NCBI RefSeq assembly: GCF_017302985.1
Contig: NZ_JAFIMU010000007.1
Span: 2,418,001-2,482,000, forward strand
From: Corallococcus macrosporus
GTDB taxonomy: Bacteria; Myxococcota; Myxococcia; Myxococcales; Myxococcaceae
DNA length: 64,000 bases
Direction: 5' to 3'
The number at the start of each line of letters is the position of its first letter. The first letter of the stretch is position 1. Under the pieces are notes generated by a model. That model made no database searches. It saw only the letters and a program-made list of their open reading frames with translations, and was not told where the DNA came from. Below are positions 1,432 to 7,919 of this stretch, piece after piece. The translations under genes were made by a program, and so were the position numbers.

Positions 1432-2562
1432 ATGTCCGCGCCCGCCGGAATGACGCTGCTCTTCGAACAGGCCCACATCCTCTGCTACCGCACGTTCGAC
1501 ATCGCGGAGGAGATCGACCTGGAGCGCGCGCGCAAGGCGCTGTCGGAGGACTCGCGCCGCTTGAAGCTGTCGCGCGAGAACAGCCAGTACATCCAGCTGC
1601 CCAACCCGCCCGTGGCCTATGAGCTGGGCCGCAGGCCGCTCGCGCTGCGCGACGGGCCCGTCACGGTGGACGCCACCGCGCGCCTGTTCGACCACGGCGC
1701 CGCGTCCATCATCCTGCGCGTCCCCGTCGCGCCCGGCACCACCTGGGAGGCCCTCACCCAGGTCGCCGACGAGCTCTATGACAGCCAGGCCCTGGACGAC
1801 CTGGCGCAAGAGCTGGTGGAGGGCGTGCGCCGCACCATCTCCGCCGCCGTGCAGGGGCCGCACCTCTGGGACCAGAGCGAGAGCTACACCGTCATCTTCG
1901 CCGAGCGCATCCAGGGCAACCCCTCCGCCGAGGAGCTGTTCCAGCGCGCGGACATCGCTCGGCTGCTGCTGGGGGAGAGCACCACCGCGCCGCTGGCGCC
2001 TCGCGAGCGCGAGGCCGTCACCCAGGTGCGCTTCAGCTACACCGCGCACGACCTGGTCGTCGTGGACTGGAACAGCGCGTTCGTCTACGAGCCGTCCGGC
2101 TCGCGCGACATCCCGGACCTCCTGGAGATCGCCAACGCGCAGTTGCTGGAGTTCCGCTACTACGACGAGCGGCTGGACGAACACATCGCGCGCATCCACG
2201 ACGAGGTTCAGGCGCGCAAGCCCGGCTGGCTCACGCTGTTCCGCAGCCCCTACCGCAGCCTCGCGCGCGAGACGCTGGGCACGCTCGTGGACCTCAACGA
2301 GTTCGTGGAGCGGGTGGAGAACAGCCTGAAAATCATTGGCGACTTCTACCTGGCCAAGGTCTACGAGGGCGCGGTGCGCCGCCTGCGCATCCCCGCGTGG
2401 CAGGCCTCCGTCACGCGCAAGCAGCAGCTGCTCGCGCAGACCTATGGCCTGCTCAAGGGCGAGGTGGACATCGACCGCTCCCACATCCTGGAGGTGATGA
2501 TCGTCGCGTTGATCATCCTGGAGATCGTCCTCGCCTTCGGCCGGGTGTTCCAGGATGGGTGA
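1432..2562 (+). CDS. RMD1/DUF155-family protein with C-terminal membrane anchor
   Basis: This 376-residue protein resembles the RMD1 (DUF155, YagE) family known from yeast mitochondrial RMD1/RMD8 and from many bacteria. The N-terminal part has the [19 protein letters not shown] segment. The middle carries [14 protein letters not shown] and a long helical region (about 230-330). The C-terminus has the typical helix-then-membrane ending, with [20 protein letters not shown] (about 347-366) as a single transmembrane segment. The role in bacteria is unknown; in eukaryotes the family acts in mitochondrial translation and sporulation. It starts 13 bases after the Uma2 gene and is probably in the same transcript. 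Confidence 0.75.
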
Positions 2563-2630: not shown

Positions 2631-4091
2631 GTGAGCGCATCCAATCCCCTCTTCGGTGACCTGTTGCTCAAGCTGGGTGTCGTCACGCCGGGGCAGGTGC
2701 AGGAGGCGCTCGCGCTGCAGGCGCTCACCGGCCAGCGCGTGGGTGAAGCGCTCATCTCCCTGGGCTACGTGTCGCGCGAGCAGATCCAGGACGCGCTGGG
2801 CGAGGCCCTGGGCCTGAACCACGAGAAGGGCCCCGCGCAGCCGCCGCTGGGCGAGCTGCTGGTGGGGCTCAAGTACGTGACGCTCGCGCAGCTGGACGAA
2901 GCCCTGGCGCGGCAGCGGCGCGACGGGCGGCGGCTGGGGGAGATCCTGGTCGAGCTGGGCCACTGCACGTACAAGCAGATCTACGAAGCGCTGGGCGTGC
3001 AGAACCGCATCGTCGGCCGGCAGGACCTGCCGCGTCCCGCGACGGAGGGGCGCCGCCGCGTGGTGGTGGTGGACGACAGCCCGCTGGCGTGCGCGTTCGT
3101 GCAGGAGGGGCTGGTGGCGCTGGGCTACGAGGTCCTCTGCTTCCAGGACCCGTACGAGGCGCTGGAGGGCATGGGGCGGCTGCAGCCGGCCATCGTGCTG
3201 AGCGACCTGGAGATGCCGGGGCTGGACGGCGTGGAGCTGTGCCGGCGGCTGAAGGAGGGCCCTCGCAGCGCCATCCCCGTCATCATGCTCACCGCCAACG
3301 ACCGCGAGGCGGAGCGCGTGCGCGGCCTGCGCGCGGGCGCGGACGACTACGTGAACAAGTCCGCGTCCATGGATGAACTGGCGGCGCGCATCGAGAGCGT
3401 GGTGCGCCGCACGGGCGAGACGGAGCGCATGCGCAAGCTGTTCGCGCGCTACACGTCCGACGCGGTGGTGGAGGAAATCCTCAAGAGCGCGGACGCGGCG
3501 GTGCTCGCCGGTGAGAAGCGCGAGGTGACGGTGCTGTTCGCGGACATCCGCAACTTCACCGGCCTGGCGGAGAGCCTTCCCCCCGAGCAGGTGGTGGCGG
3601 TGCTCAACCAGGTGCTGGGCCGGCTGTCGGACGCGGTGCTCACCTGCGGCGGCACGCTGGACAAGTTCCTGGGCGACGGGCTGATGGCCGTCTTCGGCGC
3701 GCCGGTGGGCCGCCCGGACGACGCGCTCCGCGGCCTGCAGTGCGCGAAGATGATGATGGAGGCCGTGGCGGAGCTGCGCGCCATGGCGGAGGCCGAGTGG
3801 GTGGCCCACGGCCGCGAGGGCCGGCCCCTGGTGCTGGAGCTGGGCGTGGGGTTGAACTCGGGCGTGGTGGTGTCCGGCAACATCGGCAGCGCGCTCCGGG
3901 CCGAGTACACCTGCATCGGCGACGCGGTGAACGTGGCCGCCCGCCTGTGCGCGCTGGCCGGACCGGGGGAAATCCTGGTGGGCGAGCGCACGCGCGAGCT
4001 GGTGGACGCGAACGAGACCGCCTTCGAGGACCTGCCGCCGGTGCGCTTGAAGGGCAAGCAGCAGCCGGTGCCGCTTTACCGCGCCCTCTGA
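2631..4091 (+). CDS. GspE-N-like / response receiver / class III adenylate cyclase fusion
   Basis: This 486-residue cytoplasmic signalling protein is predicted to make cAMP. Residues 1-130 hold two copies of a MshEN/GspE-N-like module ([26 protein letters not shown]), which in other proteins binds cyclic di-GMP or type II/IV pilus parts. Residues about 140-260 are a receiver domain with VVVVDDS and phospho-acceptor Asp in [11 protein letters not shown]. Residues about 295-486 are a class III cyclase with both metal-binding Asp ([21 protein letters not shown]). Its adenine-specifying Lys and Asp are in DKFLGDG and [11 protein letters not shown], so ATP rather than GTP is expected. GTG 2631 is chosen because GGAGG at 2619-2623 is correctly spaced; the upstream open frame overlaps the previous gene and is not coding. 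Confidence 0.88.
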
Positions 4092-4118: not shown

Positions 4119-4538
4119 ATGGCCGCCACCTCCCCTTCGCCCGCCGCCTCCGACAGGTCCCGCCGCTCGCCGCTGCCCTGGGTGGCCGTGGTGTTCGCGC
4201 TGGCGCTCGTCGTGGCCCTGGTGCTCACCGCCTTCCGCCGCCGCGACCCCGAGCAGGCGCAGCGAATCCACGCGGACTTCGCCCTCATCCTGGGCGCGCT
4301 GGAGCGCTACCAGGCGGACCACGGCGGGCAGCTGCCGGAGGAGGGGAACCTGGACGACATGCTCGTGCCCAGGTACCTCGGCGCCGTGCCCCGGGACCCC
4401 TGGGGCCGGCCGTACCAGTACGCCAGCAGCGCGCAGGGCGTGTTCCTGTCCACCTTCGGCCGGGAGAACCAGCGCGGCGGCACGGACGAGAACCAGGACC
4501 ACACCAACCACGACGGGCACCAGCAGCTGCTGCGCTAG
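4119..4538 (+). CDS. Type II secretion pseudopilin (GspG-like) related membrane protein
   Basis: This is a 139-residue protein with one N-terminal membrane helix (WVAVVFALALVVALVLTAF, about residues 23-41) and a small exported domain. The exported part has the pseudopilin signature seen in GspG: helix IHADFALILGALERYQADHG, then PRDPWGRPYQYASS and a Ca-site-like tail (GRENQRGGTDENQDHTNHDG). Unlike true pseudopilins it lacks the GFTLIE prepilin peptidase site and starts with a long Ser/Pro-rich leader. It is probably an anchored relative rather than a processed pilin. It sits 27 bases after the cyclase gene, whose N-terminal module also belongs to the secretion ATPase world. Confidence 0.75.
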   Translation: MAATSPSPAASDRSRRSPLPWVAVVFALALVVALVLTAFRRRDPEQAQRIHADFALILGALERYQADHGGQLPEEGNLDDMLVPRYLGAVPRDPWGRPYQYASSAQGVFLSTFGRENQRGGTDENQDHTNHDGHQQLLR

Positions 4539-4690
4539 GGCTCGGGCCCCAAGGCTCGGAAGGCGGCCCGCCCCACCCCGGGGAGCAGGCAGGCCGGCAT
4601 GGACGGCCGCGCGCCACCGGGTGGCCGGCGTGCGCATCCTTCCCGCGAGGGGAGGCTCCAGCGGGCATCGCCTCCTCGGGGGGCCCCGCC

Positions 4691-6049
4691 ATGGCCATCA
4701 TCTGCGCAACCAACCTGTCCGCCGACGCCGCGCACGCGGCCACCGTCGCGGCGACCCTGGCCAGCCGGCTGGGAGAGCCCTTGCTGCTCCTGGGCGTGGA
4801 CGACGAGGTCCCCGACGCGGAGGCCCCGGACGTCCTGTCCGCGGCGGAGGGCGGGCTGGCCGCGGAGGCCGCGCGCCTGAGGGGGCTCACGGCCACGGTG
4901 GAGCCGCGCATGCAGCGGGGCGCCTCCGTGGAGACGCTGCTGGGCGACGAGGAGTGCAGGAGCGCCCGGATGGTGGTGGTGTCCGCCGGGGGCTGGCGCA
5001 CCACCCCCTGGCGCAAGACGTCCCTGGCGGAGCGCCTGGCCCGCCACGGCTGCGCCCCGGTGCTGGCGGTGCGCCGGGACACGGCGCTCCTGGACTGGGC
5101 CCGGGGCCGGCGCCGGCTGCTGGTGATGGTGGGGGTGGACCCGCGCTCCTCCACCTCCGACGCGGCCATCACCTTCGTGCGGGAGCTGCGGCGCGTGGGC
5201 GGGTGCGACGTGCTGGCCACGTACGTGTGCTCGCCGCAGGAGGAGCGCGCGCGGCTGGGCATCCACACCCCCGTGCACGTGGAGCGGCTGGACGCGCGCG
5301 AGCGCACCATGGAGGGGTTGGATCCGCTGGTGGAGCGCGTGCTGATGCGCGAGGTGCGTGAGCGCCTGGGCGACGTGGAGGGCGAGGGCCGCGTGGAGGT
5401 GGTGCTGGAGCCCGGCTATGGCCGCCCGGCGGACCACCTGCTGCACGTGGCCCACGCGAGGAGCGCGGAGCTGACGGTGGTGGGGATGCACCTGCGCAGC
5501 GGCGTGCAGCGGCTGTGGCACGGCTCCGTGTCGGAAGGGGTGCTGCGCCACGCGGAGCGCTCCGTGGCGTGCATCCCCCCCGGCGCGCGCGAGCCGCGCC
5601 GCCTCCCGCCGCCCCGAAGCGCGCTGGTGCCGGTGGACTTCACCGTCGCGTCCGTCCAGGCCATCGCGCAGGCGTGCTCGCTGGTGGGCCCGGGCGGCCG
5701 CGTGCACCTCTTGCACGTGCACCGGCTCCGGGGCCGCGAGCGGGGCCCCCGGGACTTCCTCGGCGTGCTCCCGGAGCCCGAGGGCGAGCGGGACGTGGTG
5801 CTCCAGCGGCTCTGGGCGCAGGTGCCCCGGGACGCCGTCGCGCGGGCGGTGCACTGGAGCGTGGAGGGCGTCAGCGGGGACGACGTGGCCGTCGCCATCT
5901 GCCAGGCCACGGAGCGCGAGGGCGTGGACCTGGTCTGCGTGGGCACCTCCTCGCGCCGAGAGGTCGTCCCGGACGTGCTGGAGGAGGCGGTGGCGAAGGA
6001 GCTGGTGCTGCGCTGCCGCAAGCCCGTGATGGTGGTGCCTTCCGCCTGA
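4691..6049 (+). CDS. Triple-domain universal stress protein (UspA family)
   Basis: This 452-residue cytoplasmic protein is made of three successive Usp-like alpha/beta domains (about 1-135, 136-290 and 295-452). Domain ends show the usual pattern: RHGCAPVLAVRRD ends the first, HAERSVACIPP the second and CRKPVMVVPSA the third. A nucleotide-binding-like stretch, VGMHLRSGVQRLWHGSVSEG, in the second domain resembles the G-2x-G-9x-G(S/T) motif of ATP-binding Usp proteins, while the first domain looks divergent. Such proteins respond to stress or energy limitation, but a specific role cannot be read from the sequence. ATG 4691 opens directly with the first Usp strand (MAIICATNLS); the open frame upstream is not coding. 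Confidence 0.85.
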   Translation: MAIICATNLSADAAHAATVAATLASRLGEPLLLLGVDDEVPDAEAPDVLSAAEGGLAAEAARLRGLTATVEPRMQRGASVETLLGDEECRSARMVVVSAGGWRTTPWRKTSLAERLARHGCAPVLAVRRDTALLDWARGRRRLLVMVGVDPRSSTSDAAITFVRELRRVGGCDVLATYVCSPQEERARLGIHTPVHVERLDARERTMEGLDPLVERVLMREVRERLGDVEGEGRVEVVLEPGYGRPADHLLHVAHARSAELTVVGMHLRSGVQRLWHGSVSEGVLRHAERSVACIPPGAREPRRLPPPRSALVPVDFTVASVQAIAQACSLVGPGGRVHLLHVHRLRGRERGPRDFLGVLPEPEGERDVVLQRLWAQVPRDAVARAVHWSVEGVSGDDVAVAICQATEREGVDLVCVGTSSRREVVPDVLEEAVAKELVLRCRKPVMVVPSA

Positions 6050-6120
6050 CCCGGGAACGGACGTCCAGTGTTCCGGCTTCTCATAAAACGGGTCCCTGAT
6101 TTTTTCCCGCAAGTAAGGGA

Positions 6121-6150
6121 TTGAACAGGCGACCCGGGAGGGCGTTAGAC
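6121..6150 (+). promoter_or_regulatory. Sigma70-like promoter for the gene at 6190
   Basis: A TTGAAC -35 box (6121-6126) and a TTAGAC -10 box (6145-6150) are separated by 18 bases in a locally less GC-rich stretch. Transcription would begin near 6158, leaving a leader of about 32 bases before GTG 6190. This placement argues against reading TTG 6121 as a start codon. Confidence 0.5.
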
Positions 6151-6189
6151 TTTGGGAGGACCCGCTTTCCCAGAAGGGTAGGGCATCCC

Positions 6190-6774
6190 GTGGCTCTTCG
6201 CGGTTATCGAGAAGAGGACCTCGTCTCCAACCGTGCATCGCTGCTCATCCACGGAGGTACGGAGGACGAGCGCAGGGCCTGGGCGGAGGAAGCCGCGCGC
6301 AACTTCGGCGTCCCGCTCACGGAGGTGCGCCAGGCGCCGGAGCTGGCCGGAGCGCTGCGGCAGCCCAACGGCGTGGTGTTCATCGCGGACGTGGCGAAGC
6401 TGCCGCTCGACGCCCAGGGCCTCATCCTGCGCTGCCTCCAGATGCAGGAGGAGCGGCCCAAGGTGGTGGTGGGCGTCTCCGGCACCGCGATGGCCGCCCT
6501 CACCCGGGGCACGCTGCGCGAGGACCTCCACTACCGGCTGAACCAGGCCCAGGTGGACCTGCAGACGGACGGCCTGCGGGATGCGCTCAAGCGCCGCTGG
6601 GCGCAGCAGGCCGAAGCGCTGGCCGCGCGCGCCGCCGCCCTGAAGGCCGCCGAGGAGAAGGAGCGCGCCGCCGCCGCCGCCCGCCGCCCCGGCTCCGTCA
6701 CCCGCATCCTCCCCAAGCGCAAGGCCCCGGCCGCCGCCGCCCGCAAGGGCGCGCCCCGCAACGCGGTCCGCTGA
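6190..6774 (+). CDS. ATPase-dead relative of sigma54 enhancer-binding (NtrC-type) AAA+ domain with basic tail
   Basis: This is a protein of about 194 residues. Its middle keeps the shape of an NtrC-type AAA+ domain: NGVVFIADVAKLPLDAQGLI aligns with the Walker B region (normally LFLDEIGELPL), and GTLREDLHYRLN matches the arginine-finger box (REDLYYRLN). The Walker A site is replaced by IHGGTEDERR, the Walker B Asp-Glu has become Ala-Asp, and the GAFTGA sigma54 contact loop and the Fis-type HTH are missing. It should therefore not hydrolyse ATP or open sigma54 complexes. The last 60 residues are Ala/Arg/Lys-rich (KAAEEKERAAAAARR, ILPKRKAPAAAARKG), like histone-H1-type tails that bind DNA. GTG 6190 lies downstream of the promoter at 6121. 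Confidence 0.7.
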   Translation: MALRGYREEDLVSNRASLLIHGGTEDERRAWAEEAARNFGVPLTEVRQAPELAGALRQPNGVVFIADVAKLPLDAQGLILRCLQMQEERPKVVVGVSGTAMAALTRGTLREDLHYRLNQAQVDLQTDGLRDALKRRWAQQAEALAARAAALKAAEEKERAAAAARRPGSVTRILPKRKAPAAAARKGAPRNAVR

Positions 6775-6915
6775 AACCCACCCCTTGGAGGCCCCAGGAC
6801 AGGGGGCCTTCAGAGGGGAGCGGGGGTCGGTCCGGGTGGGGGAATGGGTACTACTGGAAAGATGGGCTAGAGTTGTTCCCAGCCGTCTTTCCTCTCCTCT
6901 CCGGAGCGAAATCAC

Positions 6916-7371
6916 ATGTCCCAGCAAGCCCCTGGCAAGAAGCGTGGTCTGTCCCGTCCCGTGGAAGTCGTCCGCGCGGAGCTCCTCAAGGACCCCGAGA
7001 CGAAGCGCATCGCGGACGCGGTGGGGATGAAGCTGGAGGACTACGTCGAGCTGGTGCTCGAGTACGCCCAGGACAAGGACAAGGAGCCCATGCTCAACGT
7101 CGTGTCCGACGAGGAGCTGAAGGCCAACGGCTTCCCCGTGCACACGGTGGAGGAGGTCGGTGAGTTCCTGGTCGCGGGCGCCAAGGGTGAGCTGCCCGGC
7201 CAGGGCAACCCCTTCGCCAAGTCCGAGTTCGAGGCCGGCAAGGGCGGCGCCGCCGGCGCCAAGCCCGCGCTGAACCCCGCGGGCGAGGCGGTCAAGGCGC
7301 CCCAGGACGAGGCGAAGCGCCAGGAACTCATGGATCAGCTCAAGAAGGGCGGCGGCGGAACCCGCGGCTGA
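6916..7371 (+). CDS. Conserved-looking hypothetical cytoplasmic protein (151 aa)
   Basis: No family is recognised. The first 100 residues look folded and mostly helical (PVEVVRAELLKDPETKRIAD, KLEDYVELVLEYAQDKDKEP, VHTVEEVGEFLVAGAKGE). Residues 100-151 are a low-complexity Gly/Ala/Lys/Pro tail ending in a charged helix (DEAKRQELMDQLKKG). There is no signal peptide or membrane segment. ATG 6916 has GGAG at about 6901-6904. It stands alone between the degenerate AAA+ gene and the glycine-rich gene at 7503; the hairpin at 7410-7428 may separate it from the latter. Confidence 0.7.
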   Translation: MSQQAPGKKRGLSRPVEVVRAELLKDPETKRIADAVGMKLEDYVELVLEYAQDKDKEPMLNVVSDEELKANGFPVHTVEEVGEFLVAGAKGELPGQGNPFAKSEFEAGKGGAAGAKPALNPAGEAVKAPQDEAKRQELMDQLKKGGGGTRG

Positions 7372-7502: not shown

Positions 7503-7919
7503 ATGGGCGGCATCGGCAAGGTTGTCAGCAGCATCGCGAAGACGGTCAGCAATGTCGCCGGCGGCGTCGCGAACATCGCGGGCAAGGCCCTCAGCTTCGT
7601 GCAGAACCCGATGGGCGCCATCACGGGCGGCCTGAAGGGTCTGGCGGGCGGCCTCCTGGACAAGCTCCCGTTCGGCCTGGGCAAGCTGGCCAAGCCGTTC
7701 GTGGACAAGTTCATCGACTCCGGCGCGTCCCTGCTCTCCAAGGGCCCCCTGGCCGGTCTGTCCCAGCTGACCAAGTTCGCCCCCACCGTGAAGACCATCG
7801 GTGACATCGCGACCACCGTGAAGAACGGCGCGGACAAGGTCGGCGCGCTGGTCTCCCAGCCCGCGCAGCAGAACTTCCAGAACATCATCGCCCACGGGCA
7901 GGCTGCGCTCATCAACTGA
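7503..7919 (+). CDS. Glycine-rich amphipathic hypothetical protein (138 aa)
   Basis: This protein is composed of short Gly/Ala/Val/Ile helices with Lys, for example GKVVSSIAKTVSNVAGGVAN, AITGGLKGLAGGLLDKLPFG and KTIGDIATTVKNGADKVGA. There is no cleavable signal peptide and no single long hydrophobic helix. The pattern of many small residues every three to four positions suggests amphipathic helices that could associate with membranes or self-assemble, as in some pore-forming peptides and virion-like structural proteins. This is appearance only; no family is recognised. A GGGGG ribosome site (7491-7495) precedes the ATG and an isolated AT-rich leader suggests its own promoter. A terminator-like hairpin follows at 7953-7987. 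Confidence 0.7.
   Translation: MGGIGKVVSSIAKTVSNVAGGVANIAGKALSFVQNPMGAITGGLKGLAGGLLDKLPFGLGKLAKPFVDKFIDSGASLLSKGPLAGLSQLTKFAPTVKTIGDIATTVKNGADKVGALVSQPAQQNFQNIIAHGQAALIN

Follow-up and report, generated by a model that had tools for sequence, protein, structure and literature searches.

Organization of the T Locus

The window, by which we mean the whole 64,000-nucleotide stretch of Corallococcus macrosporus DNA that was analyzed, carries a short gene, here denoted T, downstream of a series of genes encoded on the same strand (Table 1). An open reading frame listing had put the start of T at the TTG codon at position 6121, while orthologues start at GTG or an equivalent codon, and the GTG start is used here. 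A consensus promoter scan of positions 5950-6950 called no promoter; the TTGAAC and TTAGACT-like pair in the leader nevertheless suggests that T is expressed independently in related genera.

The cyclase gene upstream of T encodes a receiver domain and a nucleotide cyclase domain by profile match, together with two matches to the NCBIfam MshE-related c-di-GMP-binding domain (112 bits against a cut-off of 38). Its four c-di-GMP half-motifs fit only 7-8 of the 11 published consensus positions, which weakens the prediction (motif: PMC5013675), and MshEN has been described to occur with REC and with adenylate/guanylate cyclase domains (PMC5013675). Judged from its sequence, the cyclase is a predicted c-di-GMP binder and a predicted maker of a cyclic nucleotide. 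Among the other neighbors, the universal stress protein gene comprises three Usp stretches by Pfam, and the product of gene X, which the family conserves, has one hydrophobic stretch near its C-terminus, as judged by eye.

Table 1. Coordinates of T, its parts, and neighboring features in the window.
Feature	Coordinates	Strand	Remark
X, conserved gene with no Pfam match	1438..2553	+	First gene in the order X, cyclase, T
MshEN-MshEN-REC-class III nucleotide cyclase gene	2631..4091	+	T directly behind its orthologue in deep lineages
T2SS protein G-like gene	4119..4538	+	Separates the cyclase gene from T in relatives of the window
Universal stress protein gene	4652..6049	+	Approximate start; between cyclase and T
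Promoter-like pair TTGAAC (6121-6126) and TTAGACT (6145-6151)	6121..6151	+	Conserved upstream of T in related genera (alignment)
T, pseudo-AAA+ protein, 194 aa	6190..6774	+	GTG start at 6190, stop at 6774
T AAA+ alpha/beta core, residues 13-125	6226..6564	+	AlphaFold2 model and VIA-align
T former Walker A GGTEDERR, residues 22-29	6253..6276	+	R28 in the Lys position
T former Walker B pair A66-D67	6385..6390	+	D67 in the Glu position
EERPK family signature of T, residues 87-91	6448..6462	+	Site of the activators' pre-sensor-I insertion
T Arg-finger box REDLHYRLN, residues 110-118	6517..6543	+	Box not kept by deep orthologues
T C-terminal helix and disordered basic tail, residues 124-194	6559..6771	+	Net charge +12; long form in one clade only
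Two small conserved proteins with no Pfam match	6916-7371, 7503-7919		Farther from T in several relatives

The Core of T Descends From a sigma54-Activator AAA+ Domain

Residues 60-122 of T match the sigma54 interaction domain PF00158 with 24.6 bits, above the gathering cut-off of 20.2 (E 2.3e-5). A match to PF14532 (Sigma54_activ_2) fell below its gathering cut-off (17.9 versus 25 bits), and such weak matches mean little because this family also matched 13 of 14 control genomes, above the cut-off in 10. The best match of T among PDB sequences, NtrX, was weak (E 0.0052), and a comparison of the T profile with three activators gave a probability of 96 and an E-value of 4e-9 over the part from Walker B to the Arg finger.

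An AlphaFold2 model built on 15 sequences had an overall pLDDT of 74. Ten-residue blocks scored 74-92 across residues 21-160, and the last 26 residues scored below 50. Foldseek returned FleQ, FlrC, and NtrC1 as top matches of the model, at modest TM-scores of ~0.4. Structural alignment by VIA-align paired the model with DmpR (Z 11.0, 111 residues, 2.8 A), NtrC1 (Z 10.2), and the compact E. coli P-loop domain 3n70 (Z 9.9, 109 residues), and all of these matches fall inside residues 13-125. A preliminary description of this DNA had read T as a degenerate sigma54-activator AAA+ domain and had proposed NtrC1 as the structural yardstick; the profile and fold comparisons bear out that assignment, and we hold with high confidence that the core of T descends from such a domain. 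In its alpha/beta AAA+ core and in the alignable stretch from Walker B to the Arg finger, T resembles the bacterial enhancer-binding proteins, or sigma54 activators (bEBPs, PF00158; NtrC1, PspF, FleQ, DmpR). Unlike them, it is without the Walker A Lys, the Walker B Asp, GAFTGA/L1, the pre-sensor-I insertion, the lid, and the HTH.

Catalytic Residues and sigma54-Contacting Loops Are Lost

Residue conservation was scored in an alignment (A3) of 27 rows picked for spread out of more than 50 loci, and in an alignment (A1) of 14 of the 18 close sequences, which are those of the window and of loci L001-L017 (a second close alignment, A2, held 15 of the 18). The Walker A pattern GxxxxGK[ST] is replaced in T by GGTEDERR, and the Walker B DE by Ala-Asp or Pro-Asp. 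Across the diverse orthologues, the Walker-A Lys position is Arg in 27/27 (R28), the Walker-B Glu position is Asp in 27/27 (D67), and the Walker-B Asp position is Pro in 20/27 and Ala in 3/27. The lost Walker A, the altered Walker B pair, and the absence of GAFTGA reported in the preliminary description are confirmed, and there is high confidence that T is without the known AAA+ catalytic residues. Residues that are invariant throughout the family comprise L11, N14, R15, G22, R28, A32, D67, Q76, and L109, and E87-E88-R89-P90 is nearly so.

A nucleotide sensor might retain R28 and D67, which are invariant and lie in what was once the ATP pocket, and T could accordingly be a candidate for binding c-di-GMP, cAMP, or ATP through an altered P-loop without hydrolysis. 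The neighboring cyclase is a predicted c-di-GMP binder, and FleQ and VpsR, both the subject of structures titled as c-di-GMP complexes, are among the structural matches of T. However, the glycine-rich loop itself is lost (GGTEDERR), and we regard a sensor function as unlikely.

Losses extend to both insertions that are specific to activators, to the lid, and to the HTH domain. The L1 loop is deleted (20 alignment columns) and GAFTGA is absent from T; 11 alignment columns that correspond to the pre-sensor-I insertion are missing as well. GAFTGA in L1 contacts sigma54 directly, and pre-sensor I is the adjoining loop (PMC2745333). The lid subdomain is absent: deep orthologues stop directly past the core, and in the T of the window a single long helix follows the core where the lid would be. 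No Pfam HTH match was obtained for the C-terminus, which is where the model is least certain.

The Arg-finger box named in the preliminary description is recognizable, and its REDLHYRL portion is invariant in all 14 close orthologues; its conservation does not extend across all orthologues, and the deep ones carry TDDLRYWLR and similar strings in its place. Of the two findings named beforehand as counting against the preliminary description, a non-AAA+ fold and an unconserved box, the analysis thus yielded the second and not the first. Across A3, R110 is Arg in 17/27 and Thr in 8/27, and R116, which by alignment we take to be the counterpart of the Arg finger R168 of PspF, is Arg in 13/27, Trp in 10/27, and Ala in 4/27. 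In PspF, R168 has been named a putative R-finger (PMC2745333).

These patterns bear on the earlier suggestion that T could be an inactive member of true sigma54 activator rings, with a poisoning or tuning effect on them. That the core aligns with activators, that the box is invariant among close orthologues, and that the genome holds 48 above-cut-off activator-domain matches as possible partners would all be compatible with mixed rings, but T has neither lid, L1/GAFTGA, nor pre-sensor-I insertion, and the Arg-finger positions are often lost. Because the required ring contacts and the Arg fingers are not kept across the orthologues, this reading is disfavored; with the sigma54-contacting loops and the lid gone and the Arg fingers decaying, we rejected it as the main reading and give it very little credence.

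T Is a Vertically Inherited Gene of One Bacterial Family

A contig scan recovered 19 loci, which comprised 17 orthologues of T from Corallococcus, Myxococcus, Pyxidicoccus, Citreicoccus, and Hyalangium and two ordinary activators. T was identified in 83 of the 96 genomes of the window's family, with one match each (E <= 1e-15), and searches at the level of the order (E <= 1e-12) and of the phylum (E <= 1e-8) matched 83 of 145 and 84 of 195 genomes, respectively. The 84th match at the phylum level, in G090, belongs to another compact AAA+ protein that is distinct from T. No T-type protein was therefore found outside the family among the 195 genomes, in each of which at most 16 candidates were scored, such that very divergent relatives of T may be missed. 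In several genomes without T the contig ends (G021, G026, and G087, and likewise G090). G013 and G046 are without T yet encode the cyclase and a protein denoted Y (see below), and in G052 gene X is present with neither cyclase nor T on the stretch.

In 10 pairwise comparisons, dN/dS of the core was 0.08-0.43, which indicates purifying selection, and reading frames were intact among orthologues. We conclude that T is a genuine single-copy gene of one bacterial family that has been vertically kept. The absence of the catalytic motifs might be taken to mean that T is a functionless, decaying remnant, but purifying selection, intact frames, and presence in 83 of 96 family genomes contradict this, and we assign it a negligible chance.

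Linkage of T to the Cyclase Gene

The start of T lies -4 to +43 bp behind the cyclase stop in 14 of 34 loci, and at one further locus (L057) the candidate starts of T lie 39 and 87 bp behind the cyclase. The distance is 526-4062 bp in 13 of the 34 loci, and in six no cyclase gene was detected on the stretch around T. The cyclase tree has two main clades, and each includes loci in which T adjoins the cyclase. At most loci of the clade to which the window belongs, T and the cyclase gene lie apart and T has a conserved promoter-like leader of its own, which weighs against the adaptor role proposed below. That the linkage of T and cyclase is old we hold with high confidence, and that this old linkage reflects a functional tie we hold with moderate confidence.

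With cyclase presence called at E <= 1e-90, 78 of the 96 family genomes had both T and the cyclase, five the cyclase only, five T only, and eight neither. In three of the five cyclase-only genomes the contig ends before T, and the remaining two (G013 and G046) truly are without T at that place. The T-only genomes are G044, G045, G048, G081, and G082; in G044 the match to T begins 209 bp from a contig end, and in G048 (locus L060) X is followed directly by T and the cyclase gene is missing. Because five genomes carry T without a detected cyclase, T is not strictly dependent on the cyclase, and these genomes indicate that it is able to persist alone. Co-occurrence of T and cyclase was not accepted as proof of a shared function, as it was scored within one family and is confounded by shared descent. 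Gene X, identified in 22 of 27 tested genomes, was also considered as an obligate partner of T and was rejected as unspecific, since some of these genomes are without T.

The Basic Tail of T and Protein Y

The 71 residues beyond position 123 of T are 32% Ala and 25% Lys plus Arg. The preliminary description had noted this richness in Ala, Lys, and Arg and had called the tail histone-like, a comparison that holds for composition and fails for a function shared by the family. In ten loci (L044-L053) T ends 6-8 residues past the core, in three others (L054, L062, and L063) it runs 20-25 residues past the core, and in the remaining scored rows the tail has 42-104 residues (two of the 43 rows, L010 and L074, yielded no core boundary and were left out of the count). 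Because the long tail is absent from those thirteen loci, it cannot be the shared function of T.

The tail has accordingly to be weighed as a possible means by which T acts as a nucleic-acid-bound scaffold or nucleoid protein. Long-tailed rows have a net tail charge of +8 to +27, the short forms also end in basic residues, and R165, P167, G168, V170, T171, and R172 are kept in 14/14 close orthologues, all of which would suit such a role. Against it, 13 loci have just 6-25 residues past the core, sequence change is faster in the tail than in the core (dN/dS of 0.14-0.96, above the core value in 9 of 10 pairs), and Pfam gave no DNA-binding domain in T. We rejected the tail as the core function of T, given that the long form is missing from one clade, and consider a scaffold or nucleoid protein improbable as a general account, although a nucleic-acid role of the tail in one clade is possible.

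Phylogenetic reconstruction of the cyclase from 34 of 53 rows (with a midpoint root used for drawing only) resolved two clades with support of 100/99. Short-tailed T loci fall in one of these, and the long-tailed T loci that bear a cyclase fall in the other. Protein Y, of ~195 aa and with a TerB match below threshold, is encoded directly downstream of T in 12 loci (L044-L053, L062, and L063), all short-tailed; at L054, the one other short-tailed locus, a contig end truncates the sequence. None of the long-tailed genomes, 19 of the 26 that were searched, yielded Y. On the tree, the pairing of short tail and Y amounts to a single event and can serve as no more than a hint.

A Putative Adaptor Role for T

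We describe T as a pseudo-AAA+ protein whose role is non-catalytic and most probably belongs to the pathway of its former operon partner. It resembles an adaptor put to a new use more than a protein that sabotages activators. Our tentative proposal, which we put at somewhat below an even chance, is that T serves as a non-catalytic adaptor of the predicted c-di-GMP-responsive cyclase pathway. In such an adaptor, the core might be frozen in one state, perhaps via a salt bridge between R28 and D67 that replaces Mg-ATP, and a conserved surface, made up of the EERPK loop and the NR motif that precedes strand 1, would bind the cyclase or a target of its pathway. The basic tail may supply a contact with nucleic acid or an acidic partner in the Myxococcus/Corallococcus clade, and the TerB-like Y may fill its place in the other clade.

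A more specific version of the adaptor proposal can be formulated, in which an activator ATPase, reduced to a core that works without ATP, became the adaptor devoted to a cyclic-nucleotide synthase that is gated by c-di-GMP and controlled by phosphorylation. The invariant Arg-Asp pair would take over from Mg-ATP and keep the core permanently 'on', and the basic tail of one clade would substitute for the Y of the other. This version in all its parts is speculative and rather improbable; if true, a pseudo-ATPase would connect c-di-GMP, two-component, and cAMP (or cGMP) signals.

Should the adaptor proposal be right, an AAA+ transcription-activator domain would have become a non-catalytic signaling part across a family of multicellular bacteria. 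T and the MshEN-REC-cyclase would then constitute a genetically testable pair of partners in a family that includes Myxococcus, and a wrong lead, the poisoning of sigma54 activator rings, would be removed. At the level of titles and the beginnings of abstracts we found no description of T in the literature, which is no proof of its absence from print.

Relation of T to Known Proteins

Caulobacter and Rhodobacter capsulatus NtrC and VpsR are full-length regulators, unlike T, which is a bare core. T nonetheless resembles these GAFTGA-less activators, which act at sigma70 promoters, in having lost the sigma54-contacting loop (PMC10274813). Caulobacter NtrC is described as needing ATP binding and hydrolysis (PMC10274813). 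A further parallel is offered by pseudo-enzymes of myxobacterial signaling such as the pseudokinase EcpK (PMC12004946), in which a catalytic fold is likewise present without catalysis, although its fold and pathway are unrelated to those of T.

The compact AAA+ protein in G090 (locus L114, coordinates 554-1114) is a sigma54-type domain in a 453-aa frame. Like T, it is short and without GAFTGA, but it keeps both GDHGTGK and DE, neither of which T retains. The compact domain of L114 is possibly an intermediate form.
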